Of a stretch of 64,000 nt of DNA, positions 27,850-54,027 are shown piece by piece. The position numbers and the translations under genes were made by a program. The stretch is from Sphagnum magellanicum. Taxonomy: Eukaryota > Streptophyta > Sphagnopsida > Sphagnales > Sphagnaceae. A model generated the notes under the pieces. It was not told the DNA's origin, searched no databases, and was given only the letters and a program-made list of their open reading frames with translations. Numbering within the stretch: the first letter of the stretch is position 1; each line of letters opens with the position of its first letter. Location: positions 13,810,041 through 13,874,040 of the forward strand of contig CM038917.1 in the NCBI GenBank assembly GCA_021904315.1. The letters are read 5' to 3'.

Positions 27850-28370
27850 TAAATTATCAAATAAGAAAGTCACAAGTAAATGTTCCCAATAAATAGAAAT
27901 AAAAATTCAATTTTTTGAAATACAAACAAGTCCAACATACCAATAAGAACGATGCTTATGCATGTAACTTTATTATTCTTGTTCTAACAAATCCATTATT
28001 TTTGGGGCTTTACATACCATTTAGGAAAGTTGACACCTAGTGACCACTAGAGATTAAGGATTAGGTGGAACAAAATAGATTATTAATTATTACTTTTCAA
28101 GAATCATGTACATGGATAAATTTCAGCAAAAGAATATTCTTATTAAACCATATAATACAAAAATTGCACAAATATTTAAAATGGCAATCCAATCAATATA
28201 ATGACACAAAAAACATTGAAAATTTGTAAATATAATATAATCAATGTCACCAACATCCTTCACAAATTGATTGAAGCATTAGCAACATCGAAATTAATTT
28301 TAGCTTTGCCAACATAAACAGCAAGAATACTAATTTGACTTTTGTTTATTGTATTTTTCTAAATAGGAAA
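27850..28370. other. AT-rich spacer between two transposon relics
   Basis: No ORF or repeat recognised; it marks the break where the gypsy RT is lost. Confidence 0.5.
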
Positions 28371-31881: not shown

Positions 31882-32079
31882 GTCCCAAATAGTAAGAAAG
31901 CTACCAAATATGAATCCCTCATATCATGTTAAGCCAAGAACAAATAGATTGCAACACTAGATTGAAGATCATAATTATGGCCATAACATCTATTTTCCAA
32001 CCCACCCATTTTGCAAAAAGAAATTAAAATGGAAAATACCTTACATTTTTTGGGCAACCACCTAGGGATTATAACTTTT

Positions 32080-33290
32080 AGTGGTTGCTAGGCAACGAAG
32101 ACCATTGGATTGAAACACCTTGCGGCCGTAAGTAAATTTTCCAATGAACGTCCTTCAATTAAAATGTTTGGCAACCACTAGGAGCATCTTCTTTGACCAT
32201 TCATAAAATGAAACACTTAGCCACCATACATTTCTATGCCCAATATCCCCACTTAAAAACATCAAGTGAATGTAAGAAGCTTGTCTGATAAAGATCCATG
32301 CATAGAATCTACAGGTGGCCTCTCAACGGTTTTGCTCACGATTGCCCTACGAGAAATGCCTAACAGTCACCAAATGTTTCCCCACCCAATATCCACACCT
32401 AAACAAGCTTCACAACCACAAGGCGTTTCTACATGTAATATCCTTGTGAAGAAACGCCTAGTGACCGCAAAGCATTTCTTCGTCCAACATCATTCTACAA
32501 AAATGCTTAATGGCCACTAGGTGTCTTTACGCACCATATCATTGCATCAAAATACCTAATGGCCACCAAACATCTTTGTTCCCAATGTTACTTTGTAGAA
32601 ATGCATGGTGGCCACCAAGTGTCTCCACACCTAATACCATTGTGCAAAACTGCCCCGAAGCCACCAAGCATCGCCACACCCAATACTGCTACGTAAAAAT
32701 GGCTAGTAGCCTGCACTTAATATCCTTGTCGAAAACTGCTTGGCAATCACTAGGTGTTTCCTATTCTTGCCCAAAAACTCCTAGCGGCCGTCGGGAATTT
32801 ATACACCTAATATTCATGCACAGAAGACTACCAGGCATTTCTGCACTTAATATTCATGCGCAAAAGGCATTTCTACACCTAATATCCTTGCCTAGAAGTA
32901 CCTTGCGACCACTAAGCATTTCTTTATTGAATATCTTTCCAAAGAAACGCTTGGTGGCCGCTAGGCATTTCTTTGTCCAATATCCCTTCACAAAAATGCC
33001 TAACAGCTGCCAAGCATTTTTCCATCCGAAATCCTTTCACAAAAATACCTAACGATCACCAAGCGTCTCTACACCCAATATCATTTTACAAAAATGCCTA
33101 ACGGCCACTAGGTGTCTTTACACCCACTATCACTATACAAAAATGCTTAGCATTCACTAGGCATTTTTACAACCAATATCCCTCTCCAAAAACACTTGGC
33201 GGCCACAAAGCATCTCTCCAAAACACATTCCTAGGAAGAAACACCTAGCAACCACAAGGTGTTTTTCTCGTCGTTTCTTTCTACCAAAAA
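32080..33290 (+). repeat. 49-bp satellite with palindromic GGCC core, about 24 units
   Basis: Core centres at 32464, 32513, 32562 and 32611 are exactly 49 bp apart. A typical unit is ATGCCTAACGGCCACTAGG followed by TGTCTTTACACCCAATATC and a short A-rich link. Divergence rises towards both ends. Open frames here (for example 32510-33052) are products of the repeat. Confidence 0.92.
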
Positions 33291-33299
33291 TGTCAATAG

Positions 33300-35400
33300 G
33301 TTTTTCTCACCAAAATTAATGGCATAATGTTTCTCTCACCAAACTAATCAATGGTAAAAAATGTTGGGTTTTGGTGGTATTTTAATTCTCGTTTATTTAG
33401 GGATTTGCATTCTTCTCAATTTTAGACCATAATATATATTACATTAATTTATTCTCTCATTAGCGGATAGATTATGTCCAAATTGTGCATGTTTAATACT
33501 TGTTGGATATTCCCAACAACTTGACAAAATAATTGATGCTAGAGAGGTGATTACATATATTAAGATGTATTAATTAAATGAAAATAGTACAAAACATGGA
33601 AGGAAAGGAATCAAGTACATTTTGAAAAGGAATTATTGCTTGCTTAATGACAAAAAGGAAAACGTACTATGTTGAAACACAACCTCAACAAAACTAAAAA
33701 TATTTGTGTTTTTTATCTAACAAATAAGCATTGGCATCTAAGGTGCACAAATGAAAATGTATGTTTTTTATTCTAGGATTGTTTAATTTCTACAGAAAAT
33801 TACCTATTGGTTCCAAATGCTTCAAGCCCCTTGTGCCTTGTGTGGACTTGATTTTGGTCGTGTAATCAGAAGATCTATTCAATCCATTGCATGTGGTTGC
33901 TTCCACTACTTTGTAGTCAAAACCTGAGTTCACAAACTCTTAGGTATTATAACAAAATTACATTCAATATAATTTGAGCAAATCATATGTATGTTCCAAG
34001 GAATAGAACTCTAGGCCATTTCACATCCTAAATTCTAATGTTCTTTCTCCCTAATAGAGAATTGACAAATTGTGTTTAACATACTATATTGACATAATAA
34101 CTGTAATTCAAAAAGTGTGTTATTAGGGATACCCATGAAGCCCTAAATCATGAAAGTTGTATGGAGAAGGTTTAAAACCACGTGAATTTAAAAAGAATTG
34201 GAATGATGAATTTGGAAAATGACATATCGTTTAAATGTAATCTTGTCTACATTAATGCTTAACCTTTGGATGAAGACATGGAAATTGGGAGTTTGCATTG
34301 CTTCTATCCATTGTTTGTTGTTAGGCTTTGTGTGACCTAAAAGTTGAAGAGGGTCTTCAACATGAGTGAAGGAAATGAAAGGTTATTAGTACGGTTTCAT
34401 TTGCATTATAAAGAAAGACCAAGAATGAAATACACATGGAAGGAACATAGAGGGAATGAAAGAACAATTATGCACAATGAGGGGAAAAAAAAATGAAAAG
34501 TAGATTTTGAACATTGATTATTCAATTGTTGAGAACGGTAGTTAAAAAATGTCAAGTAATAAGTATTTCAACCTATTTGTTGCTTCAATGGTATGGTGCA
34601 CGCCAAAAAGCATAGACCATTAGTCATTCCTTGTTGTGATCATTTGTAATGTTTGTTGTAGAATTCCAAACACCTATCACCCTCTTCCTTTGAAAATTGT
34701 TACACAAGGTTCATCCACCTTGAAGGAAAATTCACAAATTCAACCCAATTGAGCTCCTCTTGCTTAAAAAACATCGTCATTGGATAAAGACACTCAAGAA
34801 TGCTCTATGGTTAGAACTCCCACCTCTTTCATAACTTTTAATGGGGAGAATGGGGCCTCCACTTCGAGTGTAATGATGGACATGTATGTTCGAAAGAAAG
34901 ATTTACATCGTGTATGAAGAGATTCAAAATCCTAATAGTTGGAAATAATAGTTAATATTGCATATTTAATGCATTTGATTTTTTTTATAACTAAAAATTT
35001 ATAGCATATAACTAGCAACTACAGTTGGCTTGAAGAATTTGTAACAATCCTTCATTATATTTGGGTTTAGTGAAATCCAATGAAAGAAAACATTGGGTTA
35101 TTTGTCTTCAACCATGAAAACCTACAAAATTACTTGATGTTCAACTTTTGAATTTTGAATATCACTTTTCCGGATAATTTTTCAAGAAAAAAAAGTGGTA
35201 GCCACTTGTAGGTATATTAACTACTTCAAATAACCAAAAATAAATTTATTATTGGTTAATTATTACCTACGAAATAATTGACATTATAGTTATCTATTAT
35301 TATTTATGAATAATGATCCTATAGAATTATACCAAATTAGTATGAAAAACATACCTTTAAATTCACGAATGTTCAATAAATATTTCATAATTGATTATTA
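33300..35400. other. AT-rich intergenic, nothing recognised
   Basis: No ORF over 60 codons and no repeat that I can see. Confidence 0.5.
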
Positions 35401-35402
35401 TT

Positions 35403-35727
35403 TATATAAGCTTTCAAGTTTGGATTTTAGGGTTTAGGGTTTACATTTAGGGTTAGGGTTTAAGGTTTGAGCTTTAGGGTTTAAGGTTTGAGGTTTAAGG
35501 TTTAGGGTTTAAGGTTTGAACTTTAGGGTTTGGGGTTTAAGGTTTGGGATTTACTATGTAAGGTTTAGGTTCTAGGCTTTAGGGTTTAAGGTTTAGGGTT
35601 TAGGTTTTAGGTTTTAGGGTTTGGGATTTCCAATGCGAGGTTTAGGGTTTGGGCTTTAAGGTTTAAGGTTTAAGGTTTGAGATTTACGATGTGGGGTTTA
35701 AGGTTTGGGCTTTAGGGTTTAAGGTTC
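35403..35727 (+). repeat. Interstitial telomere-like array (TTTAGGG variants)
   Basis: About 325 bp of TTTAGGG, TTTAAGG, TTTGGGG and TTTGAGC-type heptamers, G-rich strand on +. All are degenerate, so this is an old array rather than a telomere end. Confidence 0.9.
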
Positions 35728-36027
35728 ATTCATCTTTGATGGGTTTATTTTTTAGATGGTGGTTGGCATACATATGTTATTTCACATCAAAATCTCACTT
35801 GGTCTATAATGTTGACTTCTAATTGCATGTTCAAGAATTCAAATAACTCCTAGGTTCATTTGTCTTTCAACTTGCATTGATTTTGTTTCTAATTGGGTTT
35901 GGGATGTAGGTAGGACTTGAATTGCAATGGGTACCACCTTTTTCTAAGGTTGGGGTTTGAATTCCCTATAAGTTACAGGTTTTAAAACATTTTTTTTCAT
36001 TATGTGCAAATTCAACAAGACATTATA

Positions 36028-36795
36028 TGGGATTAAATTTTTAATTTAGGACTTTATACAACTTGGTGGATGGAATGAACTCCACTTGGTGGCCACCAAA
36101 CTTAACAAATTAATTACCATTTTTCACATGAAGGATCATATTATAAAATCATTTAATAAATTTATCATTTATCATATTATAAATTATTAATGATCTTTGA
36201 TGTGAAAATAATATGACAAATTTTTCGCGATTTCCATTGTTAAGTCATGAGCTATTAAGTTTGTGATGCAAATCAAGGAAGGTTGGAATTTGGTTAAACA
36301 TGAAGGATTGTAGCTAGGTGATAATGAGATGCTCACTTGGTTAAATCTTCTTATGGATGATGGTCATTTTGGCTACATTATCAAAATTGAAAAAAATAAA
36401 ATCATACTTATCCAAACATTATTGTTTTCAAATAATTGTGGGTATCCTTTGCCCATCCATGGTGTCAAAATCAATCTTGCCCATACAAATGTTTGGAATT
36501 TGTTTATATATGTAACACATTTTGTATTGAAAGCTTTGCAATATTGATAGTTTGAAATATTAATAATACATTAGACATACACCAATATGGCCATTAAATA
36601 GGTGAAGCATTCATCCAAATGAAAAGGCTTTTGCATCCACATTGGAACACATATTTAATTAATTTAAGATTAAATTTTTAATTTAAGACTTTATACAACT
36701 TGGTGGATGTAATGAACTCCACGTGGTGGCCACTAGATGTAACAAATTAATGATCATTTTTGACATGAATGTCATATTATAAAAAAATTCAATTA
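36028..36795 (+). repeat. Pair of about 130-bp direct repeats around a 500-bp core (TRIM-like or duplication)
   Basis: GATTAAATTTTTAATTTA at about 36030 recurs at about 36666. Both are followed by CTTTATACAACTTGGTGGAT, a GAACTCCACxTGGTGGCCAC core and AACAAATTAATxACCATTTT (second copy GATCATTTTTG). The 500 bp between carries a 72-codon ORF (36329-36547) with no known match. A terminal-repeat miniature retrotransposon or a simple segmental duplication are both possible. Confidence 0.7.
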
Positions 36796-37079
36796 CATTA
36801 TTTCTAAATAAAAACAACTTTGTAGCCAATAATTCCAAAAAGATCTATGTACACATTATGTTGAAAACATTCATATCAATCTGAGTCACAACAATAAATA
36901 TACATAATTTACATTTATTTCAATAAGATACATAAACTCATTTAATTCCTTTTGAAAATGTAAAATCATTTGAACAATTTTTTTTTGAATATCACTATTC
37001 AATAACACTTCAATGATTTTTTTTTGAAAAAAAAAATGTTTAATAAATGGATAAGATTTTTACTAATATAATATTATTA

Positions 37080-37990
37080 CTTATGTTAGGCTACTTTCAT
37101 CTATTTTAGGGTTATTTTTCATCGTTCTAAACTATTTCACCGTACATTATTTATGGTTATTTATGGTTATTCTTAGTTATTTTTGGTTATTTTTAACTAT
37201 TTCACCTTAGGTTACTTTCAATTATTCTAAATTATGTTTGGCTATTTTATGTTACTTTTGGCTTTTTTTTATTATTGTAAGTTATTTTTGGCTATTTTAA
37301 ATTATTTCATCTTAAGCTATTTTCGACTATGTGAAGCTATTGTTGGTTATTTTTTACTATTGAAGTTATTTCACCTTATGTTATTATTAACTATTCTAAG
37401 TTACATTACCATAGACTATTTGTGGCTATTCTATTGGTGGCTATTAATGGTTATTTTATTAATGGCTATTGGTGGAATTATTTTATTACTGGTTATTGGT
37501 GTATATTGGTGGTTATTAGTGATTATCATATTAATGGTTATTGGTGGCTATTCTATCATAAGTTTTTATTAGATATTTAGGTTTTACTATCATAGGCTAT
37601 TGATAATTATTTTAGTGTAAGTTATTCTAAATTTTTTTATAGGCTTTTATTAATTATTCTAGGTTAATTTACCATCAGTCATTATATTATATTTTATATT
37701 ATTTAAAATTTTATATTTAGGACAAAATAACTTATAATAACATGAAGTAAAATGACCTTGAATAACCTAAAATATAACTTGAAATAAATATATTAACTTA
37801 AAATAAAATAATTTAAAGTAAAAATCTTATAATACATTAACTAGATATCTTAAGGTATAATAATGTATAATAGTTTACAATATAATAATTTATAATAACT
37901 TAAGGTATAAATTAGAATAATTAAGGTAACCTAAAATAATATAAGATATATCATAAAGTAACATAAGGTATTTAAAACAACATGAAAATA
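37080..37990. repeat. Degenerate GGTTATTT tract followed by its complement (foldback-like)
   Basis: 37085-37670 is made of GGTTATTTT, GGCTATT, AAGTTATTTCACCTTA and similar on +. 37725-37990 is made of AAAATAACTTATAATAA, AAATGACCTTGAATAACC and similar, which are the complement of the same units. Imperfect; the 112-codon ORF at 37234 is repeat-derived. Confidence 0.6.
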
Positions 37991-37999
37991 AACTTATTT

Positions 38000-39410
38000 T
38001 TCACAATAAATTATAATAATGAATTATGTCATCTATTAGTGAAACATGATGTTTACATAATGATATTATAGTGAAATAACTTTAACCAGGGTGAAATCAT
38101 TAAAATGCAATGAACTTATTTCACTTTTAAGGTCTCGTAATGATTTAGGCTAATGAACCACAAACCACTTTTATACTAGTGATTTTGTTAATTTTGGTTT
38201 ATTCAAGTTTTGATCCATGTCTAGTGGATTGTGGTTCAAATTCAATGTCATCAAATATAACCTCATATGTAATTTTTTGTGATTACTTTAAACGCTTGTA
38301 TAAAGGTTTTACTTTTTTTGGGTAATCGTTTACAAATTTTGATAAAATATGATTTAAAAATTTCTTGGTTTTTTATATTATTTTCTTCTTTTGTTTAATT
38401 TGGATTTATTTGTGAAGATGAACATACTTTTTGCATATGTATTCATGCAAACCCATCTTTAGGTGGTATTAGGGTTGTCACAATATTTGACTGTTTGTCA
38501 TGACGTAACACATTTGTTTGGATGTTGATGTTGCTTTAAGTCACACTAAAAACAGGTCAACTTAAATCAAAATACTAGGATCAACTCAAATCAATGCTGA
38601 AGTCAAGCTACTTGGGGGAAAGTTAAAGGAGCCTTAAGGTTTTAATAAGGTGGCACTTAAGGTTTGTTTTATTCCTGGGCCTTTTCCTTTAAATGGACTT
38701 GTCACAATTACAATTTTTTTTTTTTTCATGTTTATCCATTACATTCAAAAGTAAAATTTTCCCTTAATATGTTTTTATTGGAATGAAAATAAATGGGAAA
38801 CAATATGAATTTGTATTCCTAATTTTCCTATTTTTTTATCCCATCATAGTTTCAAATTTTATAAAACATGGGTAATGTATTCAAAAAGAAAATGTTAAAA
38901 TAAGTTTATATCAGGTTTAAGGTCTAATGTTACTTAATATTTAATGTAAATTACTATTAACAAATCAATGTTTTTACCATAAATAAAACAATAAAACATA
39001 TATACAATTAAATCATAACCCTATGTAAAGTCTACTATCACGTAACTATTATCATTTTATTTTTATTTTTTGGGATAGTACATATTGATCAATGTGCCTG
39101 TAATGACAATGAAATCATTATTTACTTATCAATATTTTATATATTTTGAAAAAAAAATAATTCATTGAATTATATCCAAATATTATTAATGACATAAAAT
39201 ATCTGCATTCTACAAAATCCTATGACTAAAAAATGTCAATCATCATGGACACCATTGACCAAATCAACATAGTCCAATTGGACATTAACAAGAATTGAAC
39301 CAAATCCTGAGAAACGACCTTCAAGTAGCACCTAAAATATCTAAAGAAAAAAGAAATAATAAAAAGGTTTACAAAATGAACAAGAATATGGTGAGCATAC
39401 AATCCCAAGT
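38000..39410. other. AT-rich intergenic, nothing recognised
   Basis: Only short ORFs and A/T runs. Confidence 0.5.
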
Positions 39411-39411
39411 T

Positions 39412-40119
39412 TGGGGTGTAAATCTTAAAGTTTAGGGTTTAAGATTTTGGAGTTATTTTCATATAATTTAGATGTTTTAAAGTTTTGGTGTTACGATTTA
39501 AAATTGGTGTCCTTAGGTTTTTGATTTAAGGTTTCAATCATTAGGATTTGGTTTTAGGGTTTTGGTTTAAGGTTTAACGTTTAGGTTTAAGATGTTAAGG
39601 TGTTAAATTATAGGGTTTACGCATTAGGTTTAAGGTTTAAAGGTTTTCAATTTTGCTTTTAAGGGGATTTGGTTGAAGGTTTATGATTTATGTTTAAGCT
39701 TTAAGGTTTAAGACTTTGGGTTTAAGGTTAAGGTTTAAGGTATTTTAGTTTAGGGTGTTTAGGTTTAAGGTTTTAAAATCTAAGGTTTAAAGTTTAAGGT
39801 TTACGGATTAGGTTTCAACTTTAAAATATAGGTTTGGGATTTAGGCTTTGGGTTTAAGGTTCAAAGTTTAGAGTTTAAGGTTTAAATTTAAAGTTTCATT
39901 TGGGGTTTAAGGTTTAGATGTTAAAGTTTAGGGGTTCTATAGTTTAAATGTTATGATTTAAGGTTAGGCTCTAAAGGTTCAGGGTTTATGGTTTAGGGTT
40001 TAAGTTTTAGGGTTTTAAGGTTTAGGGTTATGGTGTTACATTTTAGGGTTAGAATGTTAAATTTTAGGGTTTAGGTTTAGGGTGTTAAATTTTAGGGTTT
40101 ACATATAGGTTTTTAATTT
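39412..40119 (+). repeat. Second interstitial telomere-like array
   Basis: About 700 bp of heavily diverged TTTAGGG/TTTAAGG units, same orientation as the 35.4-kb array. The best-preserved part is 39980-40100. Confidence 0.88.
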
Positions 40120-40499
40120 AGGCCACATAATATTCAATACCTTTCCTTAAGTAAATCAATTTCATCATTAAATAATCTAGAAAATAGTGAAATGATTTTT
40201 TTTGAAAATATGACATTGCCATGTTGAAAATTATCACAATCATCATAGGCTCCAAATTGAATAATTTCACAACTCATATCACAATATTATAGTAGATGAT
40301 AAAAAAATACATAATTTTAAAATGAAAAGATGAATTCATTTTTTGACAAAAAGAATTATTCATCTTGTCAATGTGGAAATAAACCCTTGGCTTCTATTAT
40401 CAAAATGATGTCAAAAAGACATCGACATCCATTATGGATGAAAATTTTTTTTGGATAAAACTAACACTTGTGTATGTTAGACAAAAGAACTAGATGAAG

Positions 40500-40822
40500 A
40501 TGTTAGGGTTTTCCTATCCCCACCTCATCCTGTTTCATTCTTTTTTCCATTTTCCTCCTTTTTCTCTCCATTTTTTTTTTGCATTTCCATTCTTCTCTCC
40601 CGCATTCTTCTCTCTAACCTTCTCTTTTCATACTTCTCTTCACTTCACAAAATCATTTTCCTTCTCCGTCACTCTTTTTTTCTCTTCTGTCATCATTCTC
40701 TTTCCTATTTTTTTTATTTTGTCCTCTGTGGGTTATCTCAATGTGCATGAACTCAATGGTCATGGTTTCAATGGGCTTGGATTCGACAAGTGCATTTGGA
40801 CATCTCCACAACAACTTTCCAG
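40500..40822 (+). other. Pyrimidine-rich tract then ATG and possible first exon
   Basis: About 200 bp of T/C-rich sequence (40530-40730) followed by ATG at 40741 and an open stretch to a GTATGT donor at 40823. The layout resembles a plant 5' UTR and first exon. The peptide (MCMNSMVMVSMGLDSTSAFG...) is unknown to me; it could be chance or the start of the decayed unit downstream. Confidence 0.25.
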
Positions 40823-41041
40823 GTATGTCAAGATTCCTTCCTCCCATCTTGTCCTTACACTTCCCTTAAGATGTTGTAAAACATTAGGTTTAAGGCAACA
40901 TTCACATTCATGAAAAACTTCGTTTTTTAAAAATGTTAAATTTGAACTCAAAGACTCTAGTTTAATCCTAGGTAGGATTAATGTTAGGAACTAATGTTTA
41001 GAAGGAACTAAAAAACACTTTGTGTTTTTTACCATGGTACT

Positions 41042-41087
41042 AATGTAAGTGTTGGTTCATATAACACTTACATTGCTATATGAACCA
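41042..41087. other. Two overlapping, mutually exclusive perfect inverted repeats
   Basis: AATGTAAGTGTT (41042-41053) pairs with AACACTTACATT (41063-41074). TGGTTCATATA (41053-41063) pairs with TATATGAACCA (41077-41087). Each is perfect and the two cannot form together. Confidence 0.8.
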
Positions 41088-42054
41088 GTGTAATATTGTT
41101 TCATATGTATGCTACTACTATATGCTACACTAGTTTGTATAGCATATAACAACTCAACTATGATATGTATGAAGCATTGCTGAAGCACTGTTTTGTGAAT
41201 TCACTTATACAATCATAGTATAGCTAATTCCATAAATTGCTAAATCCTTTAATCAACCACATATTGAACTATAGGAGTTTTTTTCTCTTCCTTGTGCACT
41301 TCTTTCCCTTGTGAAATATAATATTTTGTTTATGAAATCTTCTACTTATGCAAGCATGTAATTTCATTTTGTTATCTTCATGTTATAAGACCCCATCTAT
41401 AAGCTCTTATGTTTTTTTTAAAACCATAAGTTTTCATTTCTTTAGCTTCATAATGGAATCCTATTTATGTTGAAAGTAAACATAACAATTCCGTACCTAT
41501 CATTAATCTATGTTTGTAAGAAGCATTGCCTCAATATTCATTACAAACCACATCAATTTCAAGTTTGACAATGCCATATCCCTTTTTGCATAATTTTATT
41601 CAATAATATCTCTTATTGTCATTTTATCTCACATTCTTTTTGCAACCTATCTCAAGTTTTATCTCATTTTCTTATTACGTTACGCATTCATCTTTTAGAC
41701 TATACATTAATATCACTAACAATGTCCATGACATTCTTAATTTTTCACATAATTGTATTACATCTTTGTTTGCATTAGGTTTTTAATTAATTACATAGCT
41801 AAATCTTAATCATTTCAACCTTATTTCATTCAGAGGTTCTAATTTGTAATGGATGTTCTTATGCAACTAACTTTAAATCTATTCAATTACATCGTTTGTG
41901 TGATATTGTGAAAAAACCCAATATTAAGCGAATTCCGTGAATAGATCAGATCAACATTCAAGCCCATGGCAATCTCAATTTCACAGGCCTCAATCAACCT
42001 TCACTTACAAAACCTAACCTTGAACCCTTAAACCCTAAGTATTGTAGATAATTG

Positions 42055-42510
42055 TTCTGAATGCCTAGTGATTGCTTGGTGTTCATGTTCGCAAGTAGTC
42101 AAAACACCTAGTGCCTACCATGTGTTCACCTTTGCAAAAACTAGTCTTGAACACCTAACGACCGCCAAATGTTGAAGATTACAGAAAGTAATCTTGAGCG
42201 CCTTGTGGCCACTAGGCATTTAGGATTCCAAGAAGTAGTCTTGAGTGCCTTGTGGCCGCTAGGTGTTTAGGATAGTAAAAAAAACCCTTGAATGCTTAAC
42301 GGTCGTTAAGCATTCAGGATTGCAGAAAACAATCCTAAACAACTTGCTATTGCTAGGCATTCAAGATTACAAAAAATAGTCTTGAATGCATCATAGTCGT
42401 GAAGCGTTTAAGAATGCAAAAACCAATCTTGAATGTTTAGCGGTCGCTAAACATTCATAATTGTAAAAACTAATCTTGACCATTTGGTAGCTGTCAGGCA
42501 TTCAAAAATG
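42055..42510 (+). repeat. 47-bp satellite with 28-nt palindromes, about 9 units
   Basis: Unit starts at 42148, 42195, 42242, 42289, 42383, 42430 and 42477 are multiples of 47 bp apart. Each unit has a palindromic half (TGAATGCxTA-xCG-GT-CGx-TAxGCATTCA type) and a half reading GGATTGCAGAAAxxAATC. Units at 42289-42316 and 42430-42457 are perfect apart from the 2-nt centre. Confidence 0.93.
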
Positions 42511-42779
42511 TAGATAGGAATCCTAGGCATTTTATAGACCATGCAAGAGTTCATGAATACTATGGTTCAAAAATATGCACCGTCTTTTGTGATTGATGTT
42601 TAACTAAACTAGTTTTGGCATACAAGTATGCCCCACCATTATTGAAAAAGATCGTTGGGAAGTACGTTGGAACTAACAAACTATACACTGAAGCAAAGCT
42701 TGGCATCTTTTAGCTCACAATTTCATCCTAGGTAATCTTTGTCGTGGAAAGTTCTAATAGTAACCTGGAATTTCATTTT

Positions 42780-45600
42780 ATTGAAAATGGGAATCAGGTT
42801 TCTATCAAAAAAAGGCCTATCCACTCAATCAAGGTTTGGGCACATGAATTGGGGATGGTGGTGGTGTTTCTTGAAGACCTAAGGAGGAAAAAGTAGGTCC
42901 ATGCATTTGCCCATGCATGAAAATGAACAACAACCTCATCTTTGACCGAGGTTTCAAAATTTGTGGCCTTGCATCACAAATTGCAAAGGACATCATCGAA
43001 AAATGGACAAATTTTCATGAACTTTAGATGCTTGAGAAGATGGAGTTTGAAAAAGAAATCATTGAATGATCATTCGCATCATTGGGAGGTGGGGAGAGCT
43101 TAGCTATGCAACATCCAAGGAAGGAGGTGAGAAAAAAACCCACTGACGCACAAAAGAAGGAGAAAGTATTGGAAAAACTTGTGCATGCAAAAACTAATAA
43201 GGGGTACAATGCAAAGGAGTGTCGTTTTGTTGATAAATCAATTAAAGAGGAATACTCTATGTGCTCCCCTTTTGGTCACAATTCAATTCTAGACATGACT
43301 ACTACCGTTGAAAGATTCAAATAGTCTCCCCCAAATATTGTTTATCAGCTAGTGTTAAACATTCATGTTGATGAAATTAGAAGATTGATCACATAGTACA
43401 ACAAGTTTGACACAAAAGCCCCAATATTTGCAATTCTTGAAGACCCAACATAGCTAGATTACATACTACCAAGACGCCCATGAAACTAGGAGGACATTCA
43501 AAATCACAATTTTCTAATTGTCGGCAAGCAGCACACAATCAAGGTTGCAAATGTGTGTTTATTTTGATCCCTCCTTCTTACATTATTGTGGTTGTTATAT
43601 TGTCTTGCCTCAAATTGATTTGTCCATAAACGAGGGAATTGTCTTTGTTGCTTCTTACTCTTCATTTTATAGCAACTGATTGCGGATGACAATATGTCAT
43701 TGGAGGTGTGGCAAGTATATAACATGTTCCAGATTGTGGTAACATGGGACACTAATTTTGTGAGGATTTACAAAATCTCCAAACTTCTCAACAACAAGGA
43801 TTGTGCCATGAACACGAATCCATCCTATTGTGAAAGCCTTATACATGTGCAATGGATATGGGACTCCTACAATAGACCACTTCCAAGTCTTGACTCGTCT
43901 ATTTGGCATTCAGAAAAATAGAAGGTAAAACAAGAAACCCCATAAACATTGTCATAATTTTAGTGATGTATTTAGCTTCTTGGTTTCTCAAAATCCTCAA
44001 TTCGTTATCTACAGCAATTTGAGGTGACATTGAAACATGTTTTGAACATTAAGTCTACAAAGGAATGTATGAACATCCTTCTTTCCTTCAACATTATTAT
44101 CCACCTCTAGGAAACTATCCTAGTGGAATGGGAAAGATGCAACATTTTAGATGGTTTTGGTGATGTTCCTACAAAGTCGCCAAAACTGATTGGAAAATCG
44201 ACATTTGGTTGTCTTGCCAATTTGAAGGAAAACCAATTGGAAAAGCTAGCAAGAGGGCTTATTTCATGGATAGTAACTATCCGTGAGAGACCAAACGATG
44301 GTGGAAGACTTGATTTGAAGTCCATGTGCAAGGTATCCAAGACATTCAAAAGAAAGGCCATAATCTAGAATGAAATCATGATCCATTTTGGACTTCCAAA
44401 GCCAATAACAAATAATCAAAGGCCATACAAGGATGAAAAATGGCATGTTTTAAAAGTGAAGCATAAGATGGACAAAATATTTTTTCTCGATTCTAGATGC
44501 AGAACTTTTCAAGGATATTTACTTGAAGAAAATGAGGCTAAACCCATCCAATGAAGCTCCTCCATCTGGCTTTAAATTTGCACTATTGATAAGGGTCCAA
44601 AGTGCCACTCCATAGGCACTTGCAATGAAGGATATTTTTCTGGACACACATTGCAAGTTCAATTGTGTAAGGAGTATGGTTGGATTAAAAGAGGTTATTG
44701 ACACACCCAAGTTGTTTTCATTTTCATAGGACCAAACACCACATGCCATCGTTGTGTTCTACACAACACACACATTGAAAGAGATTCTTGTAGCATGGAA
44801 GGGACCTGATTGGGAGTCCTTCATAACTAGCTTGTTGGAGGCAAAGGTGACTTTGAAAGTCGTTGTTTGTGTTTGTGACTAAAAGTCGTTTAGGCACCTA
44901 TTCACAACTATTCTAAAATCTGTATTTGTAAAGAAGGTGCAATTTGAGTTTGGTCAATACATGGCTAGTGTTGCAAAAAGTATTAGTTCTTCAAAAGGCC
45001 CTATGGAGGAGTTGGTGTTTTTCTATGGTTATTTGTTCCCATGTAAATTTGGAAAAAATATACAAGATATATTTGGAACAAGGAAGTTACTAGCACTGAT
45101 TCCTCATTTGACTTCCTTATTCCCAAAAGATCTGCACTTATACAAGTATGGAATACTACCAGAGGCATTGTTGAAGATTATGCTACTAATATTTCATGGT
45201 GATCTTATATGTATAAGCATTTTTGGCCGGGGGGGTGGGTGGGGGGGGGGGGGGGTTGTAACATAGTATGCCTAGTAAGTTTTTACTTTTTCAATGGCAT
45301 TATTGAAGTTGAATCTTTTATTACATTTCAATTGCATCCTCATATTTTTCTAAGTTTGGATTTTGTTTTCATCCTTTGGAAAAAAAATGTAAGGTGCTTG
45401 AAATTATTCCCATCAACATGGAAGGGGAAAGGTGTAAAACAATTGCATCAATTTTTCTACGATTGCTCTTAGGGGTGATTCAAAAAGATGCAACAACGGA
45501 ATTGCCTATAAGAGCCTTGAGAATCACAAATGAAGCTCAAACTAATGTTGAGATTGGGGTATTCAATTACCCTAAACAAGGATAGGATAAGTACTCTAGT
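42780..45600 (+). pseudogene. Decayed ORF region of unknown family
   Basis: Plus-strand open pieces with coding-like composition: 43082-43321 (basic, KKEKVLEKLVHAKTNKGYNA), 43694-43918, 44123-44365 (SPKLIGKSTFGCLANLKENQ, ISWIVTIRERPNDGGRLDLK), 44937-45200 (FEFGQYMASVAKSISSSKGP, ELVFFYGYLFPCKFGKNIQD) and 45376-45582 (LRITNEAQTNVEIGVFNYP). They are broken by stops and frame changes. I do not recognise the family. Order and strand suggest one former gene, perhaps linked to the FCP1-like relics just downstream, and probably a repeated element. Confidence 0.45.
45229..45255 (+). repeat. G-run of about 27 nt with two T interruptions
   Basis: GGGGGGGTGGGTGGG... interrupts the ORF that ends near 45228. 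It could form a G-quadruplex or be a sequencing length artefact. A second pure G12 lies at 55782-55793. Confidence 0.8.
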
Positions 45601-47650
45601 AGCCAAGACAATCTACCTCCCCCAAGGGTAAACTAATTAAACATGGGCAGTGTGAGGTGTAAAAGAAAAAGGGGAATCCATTGATAATGAAAGAAAGAAA
45701 TGTTCTAAATAAACAAAAATGGAATCTTGGATTATTTTAAAGCAAAGAAAATTATGTTGGCATTGAAGAAGAGGTTCAACTAGTGCTAAATTGCCAACCT
45801 CTCTGACATCTTCAATCCTACCACATCAATAACATCATCATTAGGGCTAAATTTGTAGGTGACATATGCAAACGATAAGGAGAGGGAGGTTGGCGAAGAA
45901 TTATTAGGCATCGCACTTCTTATGTACACGTTGAACCCCTTGAAAACATTTCTTGCTTAAGTTGATACAAGGATGTATTATTGCAAATATGTCTAACGAT
46001 TGTTAAATGTAGATATGTGATAATTGTAAATTAAGAAATTAAAGAAAGATGAGATATTGTGAACTCTTTTTTTTATGCTTTAAATGTAATTTAGTTTGCA
46101 TAATCTTTTCTCGCTATGTCATATATGCGATAGGATTTGGCTTTTAGTCCAAATAATGCCTATCAGAGTGTTTTTTGTGCTATAATTTTTTAGTGAATTG
46201 TTGACATCTTCTTGTCTACTAGAATATCACCTAACAAAGGCATTGCCATATTTGAACAAGGTGTGAAAGACAATTTCTCTCACCCATGCATGATTAGCGA
46301 CCGCTAGGCTTAACTATCGAACATGAATGTCATTACAAGCTTGGTGAATGTTAGACTTATCGATAACTAGTTTGAGGAACACATAGGTGTAAACTCAGGG
46401 TGGCTACCAAGATAGATATGATGTTGTTAAACACCTAATAGCCATTAGGCATTTTCATGGAACATATTACAAAATACCTACGATGTTTTGACATGCCTAG
46501 CAGCTACCAAGCATAGCTCTCATAGTTCTTATGAATATGAAATTTCATTAAAGGTTTAGGGCCTCCAAGCTTTTCAATAGCATGGCAAACTGTTCATTTG
46601 AGATGTCAACAACCATCTATTTAATATGACATAATATTGTAGGTTACGTGTACAAATAGGTTTAAATTAATGTAGTGTCTTTTTCTAAGTATTTTTTTTG
46701 TTGTATTTTAGATTTTCATCGTTTAACCATGGTCAATAATGATTTTTTATATGATATGTAAATTGCATTGGAATTTTATTTGCTTCAACTTTTGTGTGCA
46801 AATGGCTTAGAATTAGTATCGCATAAGTGCAATGTAAATACATTTGGAACTTTAAATCCCTCTAATATGAAGCATGGAATTTTAGGCGAAAAACTTTCCT
46901 CTCACAGTAATGGTGAGCTTTCTTGAATAATTTCTAGTCAATGCATTGTGGGAAGATGTATGTTGAGTTGAATTCAATGTTAAAATTGTGTTTGATTTTT
47001 TGTGTTTTAATTCAAGGAATTCTAGAATGAATCAAAAGGCGATTTGCACCAATGTTCGTGAGGAAAAAGGTAGCTATTATGGCCACAAATTTAACAGATG
47101 GCCACACCATTCCTTGTACCCAAGATGCGGGGGCTTCTCCCACGAAAGAACCTTCATATCATTTAGGAGGTCAGGAAATGGAAAGTCATTTATGTCGTAA
47201 GGACAATTCGAAAGTGAATCCCCTACATGTTATTTTCATCTTAAGGCCAAACAAGAAAAATGCTTTAATATTTGTACTTTTCAAGACAAGAAATGGGCAA
47301 CCTTCTATACGGTAAACTTCAATAATTTTTTACTTTTCGAATCAATGTTATAAGTTTTGTGATGTGTGAAATTATTTTATTGTTATTGGAGTGTTGGCAA
47401 ATATAAATACATTACTAAAATACAACTAAAGGGAATTGATGACAATAGGAAGTTGAGAGTTTGAACTTCATGCCATTACGAATATTTGTCCAATATCTTT
47501 GAGTAATACCATTAAAAGTTCAAAGTAGTTTAGGATTTTCCAAAATATTTTTCTTTATTTTTTCAATGTGAGGGTTTTATTCTAAATGTGTGCATTTGGT
47601 GAATTCATAGGTCTAGTGTTCATCCCCATCGTTGAAGAATCAGATGATAG
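45600..47650. other. Mostly AT-rich; diverged GGCC-core copies and a short open stretch
   Basis: 46300-46520 has three or four diverged copies of the palindromic satellite core (for example TAATAGCCATTAGGCATTT at 46437). 46988-47312 is open in two overlapping frames (for example FVRKKVAIMATNLTDGHTIP), likely the upstream part of the FCP1-like relic. Confidence 0.45.
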
Positions 47651-47659
47651 GACTATATC

Positions 47660-48300
47660 ATGCAACTGTCTGCACATAATTCCTTAATGTTAAGGACACA
47701 TTTACATACGATCCACATTTTGAACATGGATCACATGAAATCGCAACATCTTGATTGTCAAAAAAAATCTCTAGTTGAATTGAAGGTGAGTGAATACCAT
47801 TTGATTTTTAACTTGAATGGAATACTACTAGCAACAAGGGAGGGTCCAACCAAATTCAGCTAGTGATTTTGTGACTTGGGTTGAAAGAGTTCCTTTCCAG
47901 TTGTGCAACAAAATTCATTGTGTACATATGGTTATCTGTAATGAGGAAAAATTTCTCTAGGCACTTGGAAACAATTAAGGAGGGAACTAATGTTCAACTT
48001 GATTATTCAAGAATCTTAGACCAAGCGTTATGCTTCAAAAATGAACATTTCCTCCCTAAAAAGCCCAAAAAGCCTATTCTCCATAAAAACCTAAACACAT
48101 TTTTCAATGTCTTTCTTGGTATGAATTATGAAAATACATTGCTCATAGGTGACATGCCCTACAAGAGTTTATTTAGTCCTCCTTTTAATGCCATTTTTCT
48201 TGAGAGGTTTTATGGGTCCCAAGCAAATGGTGATTACTTGCTTGAAATCATTTTCCCTTACTTGGAAGCCTTGCATTCCTTTCGGAATGTAGGTCTGTAA
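47660..48300 (+). pseudogene. FCP1/NLI-type HAD phosphatase-like relic, copy 1
   Basis: 47787-47860 contains YHLIFNLNGILLATREG, HAD motif I where the family has DLNG; the nucleophile Asp is Asn here. After a frame change, 47881-48297 gives LKEFLSSCATKFIVYIWLSV, FKNEHFLPKKPKKPILHKNL, then NTLLIGDMPYKSLFSPPFNA, the FCP1-homology end where DD is normal and GD is found (residues 90-91 of that segment). Ending LPYLE-type: IIFPYLEALHS. Active members dephosphorylate protein Ser/Thr such as the RNA polymerase II tail. With motif I and III acids changed and a frameshift, this copy should be inactive. Confidence 0.7.
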
Positions 48301-48619
48301 ATTTGTAGAATCTAATCCTTTCGAAAGGATTAGACACATTCTTCCTTCCAACCCTTAGTACGAAAAATTAGTTGAACATTACTCTTATAAATGTAATGAT
48401 ACTTTTTGTAATAGGATGAAATCTAAACTTGCAAATAAAAAGAGGTGAAATACTTTAATTATCTATCTATTATGTCCTATGCAGTGTTGAAATTTTTTTG
48501 TTTGCTGTCTATTTGTTTGATTGTTATTAAATGTAAATAAAGTATTATCAGTTCATGTGTAATAAATTGTGTATATTTAGTTTTGTGGCAATAAGTTAGA
48601 TGACTTCTAAATATATTGC

Positions 48620-49030
48620 ATGGTGGTCATTAGGGTCTTGTTGGAACTGGCTTAGTGGCTGCCAAGGTCTTGGTGATTAGGCTTGGTGGTCGCTAAGGTT
48701 TTGTTGGAACAGGTTTGGTGGTCACTAAGGTTTTGTTGGAACAGGCTTGGTAGCCACCAAGGTCTTCTTGGATCTAGCTTGGTGATTGTTAAGGTCTTGT
48801 TAAAATGGGCCTGGTGGTTGCTAAGGTCTTCTTGGAATGGGCTTGGCAGTCGCCAAGGTCTTGTTGGAATTGGCCCGGTGGCCACTATGGTCTTGTTGGA
48901 ATTGGCCCAGTGGTCACCAAGGTCTTGTTGGAGTTGGCTTAGTGGCTATTAGTGTCTTGTTGGAACTAGCTTGGTGGTCGCCAAGGTTTTATTGGAACTA
49001 GCTTGGTGGTTGTCAACGTCTTGTTGCATA
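48620..49030 (+). repeat. 32-bp satellite with TTGGTGGYCRCYAAGG core, about 12 units
   Basis: AAGG starts at 48695, 48727, 48759, 48791 and 48823 are exactly 32 bp apart. A unit is AAGGTCTTGTTGGAAC followed by (A/T)GGCTTGGTGGTCGCC. The open frames here (48652-48885 minus, 48683-48952 plus) are repeat products. Confidence 0.93.
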
Positions 49031-49376
49031 TGTTTAGTTCCAACTTTCTATCATTGTCTTGTTTAACATGCTATAATGTCACTTAGTGCCCACATGTGAT
49101 GCTGTCTTGAAATATAATTTTTAATTTACTGCTAGTCAACATGTTGTATAACAGGACAACAACATTCTTGATTGCACATTGTTATTTGATCATAAGTTGA
49201 ATTTTAAAGGCATGCATAATGCCATATTATATATTATGTGCGATTAAATGGGGCATGTTTTGGTTTTTTTGCAATTTAAAATTCATTTGCATCGAGCCTA
49301 AGTGAGCAAAGGTATATATTTGCATTCACGTTTACATTCGAGACCTTGAAGGCCCAAAAAAATATTAATTTTAAGT

Positions 49377-49880
49377 GTGAATGGTGTACTCTGCTATTTT
49401 CTTCAATTTGTTGTTTTGCAAGGGAATGTTCAAGTGTTTAGGAAAAATGTTGACAAGAGCAAAGTCGAAGTTAGAGTTGCAGTGAAACATTTTCTTGCTC
49501 ATGCATTTGAAAAATTTTACATTGCAATTTGGTCTTGTATGAAATTGGAGGATGTATTCGAAGTTTTTCCAATGCTGATTCTAGATATGTTTATGGATTA
49601 ATTTATTTTTATTTGGGGATGTGAACAATGTTCGAAGACTTTTGGTCAATTTTTTCCCAAATCCTATTAATATTTGAAGGATTTGACATGAGTGTATTAT
49701 GTTTGCCATGGGTACCTTATGGAAAGGAAGATCAAACATTATTGATTAGCAACAAACTTAATAAAACATTTCAAAATCAAAGTGGAGTGGTCTTTTTATG
49801 GAGTCTTTTAAGGGTGAATTGTTATCAAATAATAAGGTGCAATTGTTGGATTTGGCATCTCATTTGTGGCCAACCTTAAT
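49377..49880 (+). pseudogene. FCP1-type HAD phosphatase-like relic, copy 2
   Basis: 49428-49598 gives VRVAVKHFLAHAFEKFYIAI then WSCMKLEDVFEVFPM, the middle of an FCP1-homology domain (RPGLxxFL...F.VAIWSS pattern). After stops and a frame change, 49720-49800 gives YGKEDQTLLISNKLNKTFQN, the place of motif III (LLIDD normally, LLISN here). Same strand as copy 1, 1 kb downstream, with the 32-bp array between; sequence differs, so this is an old duplicate or the second domain of one protein. Confidence 0.6.
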
Positions 49881-50251
49881 TAAATTACCCTCAACGAGCA
49901 CAATTTGAGATCATTATGATGTTTTGGTCAAGTATTCTAAACTTTGTTTAAGATTTTTTTATGAAATTATTCTTGGTTCATGCAATATATGAATTGTGAC
50001 AATGGTAATCTTATCAATGCCTAACCATTTTTGGGTATGCATTTTGAATCATTTCATCTATTTTCATTTATGATCTTTTAGGTCATTTCTTATTTTATAT
50101 GTTGAAAAAATTGTGTTATATGTTTTCTTTTGTTGGCATTCAATTTTGTTTAAAGCTAATTGTGCTTGTTGTTTGCATATTGTGCTATGATGTTTACAAC
50201 TTTAAATGGGAAAAAAAAATGTTTTCCATTAGGATTCTTATTTTGAGATAA

Positions 50252-51197
50252 TGTTGCAACCCTAGCTTTGGGGCTCGCGACCAAAACAAAGGGGTTACAA
50301 GGTTGCGGGCCAAAAGGAAGCCCGAGAGTCAAGGCAAGAAGAAGCCCAAGAGTCACATCACATACTCCCAGAGTGTAAGAAGTGTGAGGGAGTATGAGGG
50401 AGTGAACCTTCACACTCTCAAGGCAACTCCCACTTGGGGAGATGGAGTCCTGGTGGACTCCCGAAACTTCAGAGACCAATTTTAAGGGTCAAAACTCTAT
50501 GGCTTGTGGCGTTTTTTATATCATTGAAAAGCTCTTGGAATGTAGATGTTTAAAATGGGCTCGCATTGCTCATTTGGACATCTGAAACACAAGCTATGGC
50601 CAAAAGAAAAGCCAAAAGTCAAACTACCAATTTGACTCCCGACTAAAAAAAATTGGGAATCGACCCAATTTACTTGGCTGTAGGGGCGTGCAACATATTG
50701 TTGAAAGCTCTTGACGAGAGTTATAACTTTGCTTTAGATTGCATCTTGATCTGAGGTTTGCTCGCAAAGTTATGGGGCTCCAAAGTCGCGGGAGTCCCAT
50801 CTGGCGCGATTTCGGGACTCCCATTCGAGAGTCCCGGGAGAGAAAAGCCATTTGGATGTAGGCTCCGTGGCCATCCACAAAGTATACTATAAGGGGGGAA
50901 GGTGGTGGCTTCCCCCAAGTCCGGGCTGTGGTGAATCTAGTGTGTCCGTGTTGCGTGTGGCTCATCTTAGCACCAATTGTGCTCCAACTATGCACTAACC
51001 ACTTTGTGTGGGTTGTGTGCAAGCCCGTGTGAATGAATGAAGCTTGTCAACTCTTCCTAGTCCCATCCCGGAGCTCCAACACGCCCCTCTACCCTTGAAA
51101 GTGTTATGAGCTAGGGAACGTGCCCCGACTCCTCCCTTTTTTGTTGTCTTCTACTTGGACTCACATTTGAGTCCTACAAGGAGTTGGGAGCGCGTCA
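50252..51197. mobile_element. Solo LTR, 946 bp, with GATAA target duplication
   Basis: Begins TGTTGCAACC and ends GAGCGCGTCA, flanked by identical GATAA at 50247-50251 and 51198-51202. GC content is clearly above the flanks. No internal retroelement coding adjoins it, so it arose by LTR-LTR recombination. Short ORFs within (50624-51022 minus and others) have no retroelement match. Strand cannot be fixed because both ends are TG...CA. Confidence 0.88.
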
Positions 51198-51544
51198 GAT
51201 AACATGAATATAATTGCATATTTGATCATGAACCATCACAAAAGTTCGAAAACGAAGAGGAATTAACTTTACTTTTAAAATTTGCATTATTTTAAGGTTA
51301 CTTATAATAGTTTATGATAAGATTATAGTTCGTAATTAAGTTCAATTTGTATGTCACAAATATGTTTTATTTATTCCATTAATATGTCCATTGGAATTTT
51401 TAATTTTTAAATTTCATTTGTAATAAGAATTATCAACAAGTTGAACACTAGCCTAGTTCAAACTTCAAATTATATTTTAAATTTTCAATAAACTATGTTG
51501 ATCTATGTTAATTCTATTATGTTAATCATTCCAATTTATTTTTG

Positions 51545-51830
51545 GTTGTGGTAAAAAACATGGTGGCCACAAGGTGTAATTTGATGACAAATGTAAAGAT
51601 GCATTTTGTTACTTGTTCTAGATTTTTTTGTTATGGTTAAAATTTGGTGGCCACAAGGTGTAATGATGGATGTAAAGATGCATTTCGTTACTTGTTCTAA
51701 ACTTTTTATATGGTTAAGATCTAGTGGCCACAAGACATAATTTAATGATGGATGTAAAGATGCATTTTACTACTTGTTTTAAAATTTTTGCTAAGGTTAA
51801 GGTTTGGTGGCCATTAGGTCATATTTGTAA
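51545..51830 (+). repeat. Tandem repeat, units 77-84 bp, four copies of GGTGGCCACAAGG
   Basis: GGCC cores at 51565, 51649, 51726 and 51809. Between cores each unit has GTAATxTGATGGATGTAAAG and ATGCATTTxxTTACTTGTT. Confidence 0.88.
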
Positions 51831-54027
51831 TTGAAAATCACATTGTTTGCACGATGTAAATCATGTGTTAGTATTTTTGGACTTTTGTAAAGTCCAAAAT
51901 TAATTAAAATATGTGTTTTGGCCTTTTTACACAATACCATGAATTGAAAATGATTCATGGTTGACAAGTTCTAACAATGCCATATTCAATTTTATTTGAA
52001 TTTCAGGTTTTAGGTTTTATATGTAATACTTATTGTATTGTGTTGTTTGTTTTAAGGTTTGAGGCACCACTAAAGAGGTGTTTGTGGTAGATACTATGGA
52101 AGTAACATTGGTTAATCACGAGGTATTTACATGTTGGCATGCTTAGGATGTAGAGGTTGCATTAGTGTGATACAAAAAGGCCAATGGGATCCATCCTTTT
52201 CTAGTAATGACACAATTAGCCCATAGTTTATCCCCATGTTGATTAGGGTGTTATTTTGAATTTCAGAATATTAGGGTAGCTTATTATTTTTGAGGCAACT
52301 AATATTTACTATTACAACATGTTCCCCATTTTAAGGTGGGGTTGTTTTGGACTTGGGCATTTTTGGCACATTTTTGTAACAAATGTCACCCATATTTTTT
52401 TATTTAAAGCATTTTACTTTCGTTTTACACCATCTTGTGTTAATGGTTAGAAATACATTCTCACATATTGTTATATGTATGCTTGATGAAATTATCAAAA
52501 AAATGATTTTAGTTTTGTTTTCAAACAAAAAAACCTTTCTTTACCCCCAAAAATTAAAAATTCAAACTTAGAAGGAAAATAATACCTTTATGAGGGCATT
52601 TTGTAAACACCATGGGTGGAATTTTTTTGGTACATGCTATTAGAAGGGTGCTGTTCATGCCCATAGTTAGTAGTCAATGCATGTACAATACCCCTATTAA
52701 GGTATATATAAAATCCTTTGGGCTCCATAACATATCTTTTGGAATTTGGAAGGCTATTGCATAGTCCTAGCAAAACCTAGAAGGAAAATAATACCTACAT
52801 CATTTTGTGATAATTTCGTAAACAATGAAACAAAATAATTTTAAAAAAATACTTATGTTCAATCTATCATGCCAAACATTAATGGTAGAAGGGTTTAGGG
52901 TTTAGTGTTTGATACCTAATTTATAACTTAATGTTACAATTTAGATTTTCTTTAAATCAACAAATTACAAGTTCATTTTGAACATTTTTCTAATGATGTA
53001 CATATTTATGTTTTTCCCTTCTTAAAGTTGCAAACCCATTTCAAGAAAACAAAACTTAAAGTTCATTATTTAATAAGATTTTAATCGCCATTAAAAGAAA
53101 ATTTATAGCACATGATGTCACCTTTATTTAATGGTTCACATAATAATAAAAATTGGTGCCCCTCCCATATATTAATCCTATATATGATTGAATTTTTTAT
53201 TTATAGTCTTCTTACTAACTAATTTCTCACCCAAACTCATTATATAGTAGATTGTTAATATTTTATATTTTATAAATATGTGACAAAAGTTTTTTTGTAA
53301 TTTTTTTTTATGATTTATAATATTGGCTACAATATTGGTCTTTATATTGTCATTTATATAAAGGAATTTAGTTTATAACATATCAAATAATGCCATATAT
53401 GATCAATAATTTTTTGACAGTTTAATGTGTATACATTTTTGTATTAGAATATACTCAAATTTATTTATTTTAATCTTTTATTAAAATAAAATACATGTAA
53501 TTTTTCTTTAAATAAATGAACGGTTACTTATGATTCAAAAAATATGATTGTTGCATAAGTATCAATTTTTAAGTTTAAAAAAAAATCATATTGAACTTTG
53601 AAATATAAATACCTAATATTATGTATGTTTAGTCAATGTAATTTATTATTTTTATATAAAATTTAATTTACAATATATCAAATATGATATACTTAATTAT
53701 TGCAATTGTTTTTGCATTCGTATATATCAATATCTTAATAATTACTTTAAATTTTTAAGATTTCTACTTAAACATTACATATTGTTAAAAGACATTTTCA
53801 AACTCATATGTAAAAGAGTATTTTTAAAAATATTTATTCCATGCCCAATATATCATAGCATACATATTGATTCAAGTAAATGAGGGTATTGCAATACCTT
53901 CATTTACATATATCAATGATTTTGCATAGGTCCATGAAACAATTCTTATATTTATGAATTTGAAAATTTCTTTCAATTATATTTAATGTTTACTTAAAAG
54001 TTTTAACATAAACTAATTATTAAGATG

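Follow-up and report, generated by a model that had tools for sequence, protein, structure and literature searches.

Background

The systems closest to the one described here, a palindromic sequence repeated along a DNA transposon of the moss Sphagnum magellanicum, are found among other families of DNA transposons. In the VANDAL elements of Arabidopsis, VANC proteins exert anti-silencing, and passages of PMC5735166 and PMC10398659 describe sites amplified in internal non-coding regions; coevolution of transposons with their DNA-binding proteins is also described for these elements. In CACTA elements (En/Spm, Tgmt), as set out in part of PMC2613891, subterminal repeats are bound by TNPA-type proteins, transposition accessory proteins with sites near the tips. 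As for Sola elements, a passage of PMC3627910 gives AT-rich 4-bp target duplications for Sola2, and a table in PMC9033089 includes a Sola1 of Physcomitrella. The sequence analysed here is a stretch of 64,000 nucleotides (hereafter the window; C11:13810041-13874040 of an assembly of 438,994,042 bases in 31 contigs), of which 27.8-51.9 kb is a repeated, decayed DNA transposon with terminal inverted repeats (TIRs), bearing the remains of a gene with a DUF7869 domain, of a conserved coding region that we call gene 2, and of a gene with a phosphatase-like NIF domain.

The palindrome sits at a near-constant distance from the tips of this element and recurs between its genes. We consider it probable that it is a binding site, as predicted from its sequence and position, that acts on the element and has been amplified by duplication, with transposition and anti-silencing left undivided as possible roles.

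The palindromic core

The preliminary description of the window had reported arrays of one core with periods of 49, 47, 32 and about 80 bp, and these are readily recovered at 32.08-33.26, 42.06-42.50, 48.62-49.02 and 51.56-51.82 kb (49, 47, 32 and 82 bp). Additional copies, which it had placed near 36071, 36717 and 46300-46520, lie at 36085, 36722 and 46293-46512, and there is another at 28036. The stretches that carry the palindrome are as follows (unstranded unless marked):

28036-28051: single palindrome, left part of the element
32077-33260: 49-bp palindrome array, upstream of the DUF7869 gene
36031-36165, plus strand: T1, left-end module copied in part, with a single palindrome (36085)
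36646-36880, plus strand: T2, left TIR AACACATATTTAATTAATTT at 36646 and subterminal module, palindrome at 36722
42064-42500: 47-bp palindrome array, in the slot upstream of gene 2
46293-46512: palindromes at irregular spacing, between gene 2 and the NIF-like gene
48619-49017: 32-bp palindrome array, downstream of the NIF-like gene
51559-51818: 82-bp palindrome array, adjoining the right end

Composition does not account for these sites, a possibility that the preliminary description had itself raised. Allowing up to 2 mismatches, the 14-mer TRGTGGCCRCYARG matches the window 60 times (counted by strand) against 1.81 expected, and 100 shuffles reach at most 6; six of the 60 lie outside 27.8-51.95 kb, at four places (9.84, 10.58, 26.05 and 55.87 kb). 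At the same tolerance the symmetric 16-mer CYTRGYGRYCRCYARG has 40 sites in the window, all of them inside 27.8-51.95 kb, against a mean of 0.64 in 100 shuffles, and when joined at 1 kb they form 7 clusters against 0.63 in shuffles (maximum 2). With 3 mismatches, 4 sites of CYTRGYGRYCRCYARG fall outside this interval and 50 inside; at 11 against 6.3 in shuffles (maximum 13), the clusters are then not clear of chance. Among palindromic 8-mers with at least 4 occurrences in the window, GTGGCCAC ranks third by observed over expected, behind TATATATA and ATATATAT.

The genome-wide search for the core that had been proposed gives a similarly clear result: the 18-bp extended core AYYTRGTGGCCACYARRT is found exactly at 542 sites and its reversed pattern at 0, exact matches to TRGTGGCCRCYARG number 596/577 against 2/3 for the reversed pattern, and the exact 16-mer CCTAGTGGCCACTAGG has 43 sites, spread over 18 contigs, against 0. 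A dyad of 26 bp, read from column frequencies, was considered and trimmed; we take the dyad as 18 bp, because positions ±12 and ±13 failed the shuffled-partner test. At position ±9, which falls outside the 14-mer used for fetching loci, the fraction of complementary units is 0.77 (104 units), against 0.65 for shuffled partners (500 shuffles, maximum 0.73). A text search of the literature for GGTGGCCACC gave nothing relevant by title among the matches listed.

The linkers of the four window arrays look unrelated, as had been claimed: in 6/6 pairs they are no more alike than shuffles (lowest p 0.056, with the 49-bp unit out of register), a result that also speaks against a single satellite with indels. 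The accompanying proposal, of a short palindrome that seeds independent tandem arrays, overlooks that the window arrays all lie between genes of one transposon.

A decayed transposon with terminal inverted repeats

The limits of the element and its right terminus are:

27815-51917, unstranded: decayed DNA transposon, left limit approximate, no left tip being seen (BLAST to L021, L017, L030 and L034-L037)
51897-51917, minus strand: right TIR with its tip AACACAT at 51917, one base longer than the left TIR

Both ends of the element bear inverted AACACATATTTAATTAATTT, and the exact 18-mer TIR is frequent genome-wide (174 vs 0). With window 36640-36880 as the left-end query, 51 matches were obtained (the best 40 of 136 candidates, with 11 weaker partial matches set aside), and with a right-end query 41 (the best 40 of 123 candidates, with 1 match set aside); 31/40 right-end matches other than the window end at query 138-140, equivalent to window 51917-51919. 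Convergent TIR pairs lie 28.4, 18.6 and 11.0 kb apart on contigs C2, C3 and C8, and exact 4-bp target duplications (CATA, TAAT and AAAT) occur in all three, making three of five end pairs overall.

The element occupies about 24 kb in the window because of nested insertions, compared with about 11-12.3 kb in the copies on C1 and C14 that have both ends, and T2 is probably a second copy of the element nested in the first. In BLAST comparisons L021 covers window 44.5-51.9 kb before its alignment shifts to 31.8-32.16 kb, L017 covers 28.0-31.9 kb, and 44.5-46.2 kb has four other copies (78-79%), on C9, C1, C2 and C14. At C14:2877700-2923400 (L043-L046) two element copies stand in opposite orientation with near-identical flanks, and this stretch is therefore probably an inverted segmental duplication.

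Position of the palindrome within the element

Pieced together from several copies, the order of sites begins near the left tip and at 28.0 kb; next come the 49-bp array upstream of DUF7869, the 47-bp array upstream of gene 2, the sites lying between gene 2 and NIF, the 32-bp array downstream of NIF and, next to the right tip, the 82-bp array. Eight of nine tip/core pairs have the core at 72-114 bp from the tip; in L012 the distance is 189 bp. Genome-wide, the TIR followed by 45-75 bp and TGGTGGCCAC is found 22 times (22 vs 0). Although the pattern admitted lengths of 71-101 bp, 19 of these matches fall at 83-86 bp, and at least two kinds of spacer can be told apart by eye. Counts of proximity to clusters and TIRs, here and below, use the first 100 listed motif places and the first 100 of the 174 TIRs. 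For the 19 listed TIRs on C1 and on C2 below 7.86 Mb, the exact 14-mer core is found within 400 bp inward 7 times and outward 0 times, and within 5 kb inward 11 times and outward once. Two suggestions of the preliminary description, a protein-binding site (still a predicted one) and transposon ends, agree with these results.

Corresponding slots of other element copies also hold the core; slots were picked by hand from gene order, and some are missing from some copies. In close copies the linkers resemble those of the window, with 0/200 shuffles in 4/4 comparisons (L021 three times, and L036). Against remoter copies (L010, L012, L013, L014, L016 and L026), 12 comparisons give 8/200 for slot U of L026 and 16-178/200 for the others. 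A core that is kept in its slots while linkers turn over has the look of a functional site with replaced surroundings.

Genes of the element

Three coding regions are recognisable:

29109-29552, minus strand: DUF7869 (PF25273) domain, broken gene, candidate transposase (E 1.6e-30)
43000-45250, plus strand: gene 2, conserved decayed coding region (tblastx frame bias)
47875-48291, plus strand: NIF (PF03031) phosphatase-like domain, broken gene (E 2.8e-6, 27.6 bits, cut-off 21.8), profile positions 1-40 unmatched

DUF7869 adjoins the left end, and gene 2 and the NIF-phosphatase-like gene lie towards the right end. Genome matches were taken as the best 150 of 259 candidates for DUF7869 and the best 150 of 387 for the NIF-like protein of L021, some of which may be host genes. 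DUF7869 stands on the opposite strand, no more than 5 kb inward, at 19/40 best left ends, and the NIF-like gene on the same strand, no more than 6 kb inward, at 14/40 best right ends (the window's own included). Around the listed TIRs, DUF7869 within 6 kb is inward in 18 cases and outward in 0, and NIF in 26 and 0; within 12 kb the counts are 23 vs 0 and 29 vs 4, respectively. We call DUF7869 a candidate transposase because of its position and abundance; its structure model has a predicted local distance difference test score (pLDDT) of 36.7, too low for use.

Six-frame Pfam scans of 27.0-32.1 kb (minus strand to 31.8), 33.3-37.8 kb and 42.5-51.9 kb list only DUF7869, NIF and long terminal repeat (LTR) RT_RNaseH domains; gene 2 matches no Pfam model. 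In the open-licence literature a full-text search for DUF7869 found no paper, and the titles and abstract openings listed for Sphagnum and transposon searches of that literature hold nothing on a transposon with DUF7869 and NIF; such a combination of DUF7869 with a NIF-type phosphatase-like gene appears, as far as these searches extend, not to be in print.

Other sequences in and around the element

Degenerate TTTAGGG/TTTAAGG (telomere-like) arrays stand inside the element at 35426-35726 and 39553-40122, and a similar stretch is found next to gene 2 in the C14 copy (L037 1-537). An AT-rich repeat at 36913-38185, present also in L013 and L018, has a right border that reads CACTAGTATAAAAGTGG on the minus strand; by this tip it looks like a putative nested CACTA-type element. 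An interspersed repeat of about 950 bp interrupts the element at 50250-51210; its likeness reaches 84-87% in L013, L015 and L025 and is weaker in L016, L023, L024 and L040. An RT_RNaseH domain (PF17917) at 27344-27658, minus strand, belongs to an LTR retroelement that adjoins the left limit of the element and perhaps truncates its left end.

Motif clusters elsewhere in the genome

Twenty loci of 9.9 kb around listed 14-mer matches on C1 and early C2, chosen for holding the motif, contain clusters no longer than about 1 kb (1.2 kb in the window), with spacings that include 30, 32, 42-45, 47-54, 60, 72, 83 and about 104-112 bp. On C1 and on C2 below 7.86 Mb, a listed DUF7869 or NIF copy stands no more than 10 kb from 21/45 motif clusters, against 0.56 expected. 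The count for exact 16-mers is 21/43. Some unassigned loci hold relatives of gene 2 (L010, L014 and L019, by tblastx) or a TIR (L009 and L022).

Four loci belong to a second repeat family, about 6 kb long or more, that carries the palindrome in mid-element, in arrays of about 44 bp:

L015: 416-9498
L018: 1279-8715
L020: 2377-7030
L027: 1067-7362

No TIR was found in this family with 0-1 mismatch allowed, nor any clear homology to genes of the window element, nor a Pfam match above the cut-off (in L018 and the one L027 frame scanned); a PDB search with an L018 open frame was also without a match. Compared with the window, L015 shares only the separate 50.25-51.2 kb repeat, the matches of L018 ride on an AT-rich insertion, and L020 and L027 have no listed match. 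Either the transposon family may be wider than is recognisable, or the palindrome may be common to several families.

Interpretation and alternatives

A palindrome points to a symmetric, dimeric binder. We suggest that a dimeric DNA-binding protein, perhaps of the element's own making, would bind the palindrome and act on an old family of TIR transposons, and that the sites near the tips and between the genes would multiply by tandem duplication; because amplification of this sort is tandem, duplication of a core would copy whatever linker adjoins it. The likeliest role of the sites would be a higher local dosage of the protein, for transposition and/or against host silencing. More tentatively, one palindromic "address" may serve several otherwise unrelated moss transposon families, with a single dimeric protein for anti-silencing or transposition reading it in trans; this would be a system like that of VANC, of independent origin in a transposon superfamily that bears DUF7869 and NIF, and tandem duplication would tune its number of sites.

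Several observations weigh against an element-borne binding site. No protein binding the palindrome was found, neither one of TNPA type nor a VANC, gene 2 is without a Pfam match, and symmetry at ±12 and ±13 is no higher than for shuffled partners. The window copy is rearranged, with its DUF7869 part left of both T modules. As for the end pairs, that on C14 has a duplication of 3 bp (4 bp with one tip base dropped), that on C1, with its left tip altered, is without a target duplication, and the tip base was chosen with the flanks in view, in AT-rich DNA. The exact 16-mer CCTAGTGGCCACTAGG occurs within 1 kb inward of 0/100 TIRs, and within 12 kb of them 3 times inward and once outward. Furthermore, 24/45 motif clusters are more than 10 kb from any listed DUF7869 or NIF copy (the best 150 of 259 and of 387), and some clusters, as neighbouring sites or within duplicated stretches on C2, are not independent. 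Finally, the core is not consistently better conserved than the linker within the window arrays: agreement with the commonest base is 0.75 in the core and 0.81 in the linker of the 32-bp array (purine/pyrimidine agreement 0.94 and 0.91) and 0.67 and 0.76 in those of the 47-bp array (0.93 and 0.93), and conservation is 0.76 and 0.70 in the 49-bp array in register and 0.89 and 0.69 in the four units of the 82-bp array. This is expected of dead copies but gives no direct sign of selection; the differences between units are mostly transitions, which would fit decay of methylated cytosines.

The best-surviving alternative, which we nevertheless judge unlikely, is that the palindrome is bound by a host protein (a silencer, insulator or cohesin-like factor), and that transposons have captured this sequence or are policed through it. 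The presence of the core in the second repeat family, for which no TIR, clear gene homology or Pfam match was found, would fit this reading, yet the near-constant position at TIR tips, the placement of the core between the genes of one family, and a window without any 16-mer site (up to 2 mismatches) outside the element all speak against it.

A slightly less credible alternative again is that the palindrome has no function, being prone to cruciform formation or slippage-driven tandem duplication and merely carried along in ancestral transposon sequence. Spacings that range from 30 to over 100 bp, and the inconsistent conservation of the core just described, are what such a process might leave; it accounts poorly for subterminal sites at a near-constant distance from the tip despite different spacers, and for cores retained in slots whose linkers are mostly at shuffle level.

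Although the sites are tandem, palindromic and repeated, it is very improbable that they form a single satellite with indels, a satellite of the centromere or the hairpin ends of a rolling-circle element (the last having been offered in the preliminary description), because the palindrome keeps its tip and gene slots while remoter linkers mostly score like shuffles, and more particularly the single satellite is opposed by unlike window linkers and by remoter-slot linkers near shuffle level, the centromere by clusters of at most about 1 kb in the 20 loci and exact 16-mers on 18 contigs, and the hairpin by TIRs with a 4-bp target duplication in 3/5 end pairs.

Returning to the palindrome as a predicted binding site of the transposon, its arrangement illustrates how a single palindrome can pass for four unrelated satellites, and its 542 exact sites make up a countable site code for testing the coevolution of transposons and DNA-binding proteins in a lineage far from flowering plants.

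Comparison with known systems

The moss element resembles VANDAL elements in having a short motif as tandem repeats in non-coding transposon regions, with rapid turnover of the repeats, as described for VANDALs in passages of PMC5735166 and PMC10398659. The VANC21 motif given there, YAGTATTAY, is non-palindromic and has one orientation within arrays, whereas the moss core is palindromic. No match to a transposase of Mutator-like elements (MULEs) was found in the Pfam scans, over the intervals given above, and the moss target duplication is 4 bp, where that of MULEs is 9 bp. Nor did VANB or VANC genes turn up in these scans, no search by a VANC model having been made; without MULE transposase or VANB/VANC in the Pfam scans, we do not place the element among VANDALs.

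With CACTA elements, as far as the relevant part of PMC2613891 describes them, the moss element shares a motif repeated close to the ends, in variable number and in palindromic arrangements, for which an element-encoded binder has been proposed. It differs in its tip (AACACAT, as against CACTA), in its 4-bp duplication (3 bp possible in C14), as against 3 bp, and in having arrays internally as well; Tnp2 had no match in the Pfam scans, over the same intervals. An AT-rich 4-bp target duplication, short TIRs and the known presence of Sola in a moss make up its likeness to Sola elements, and the passages concerned of PMC3627910 and PMC9033089 make no mention of palindrome arrays. Helitrons have neither target duplication nor TIR, both of which the moss element possesses, and a centromeric satellite with a protein box would form long arrays on each chromosome, unlike the short clusters seen here. 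By analogy, both the tip-site (TNPA-like) and the internal-site (VANC-like) precedents would fit the arrangement of the palindrome.

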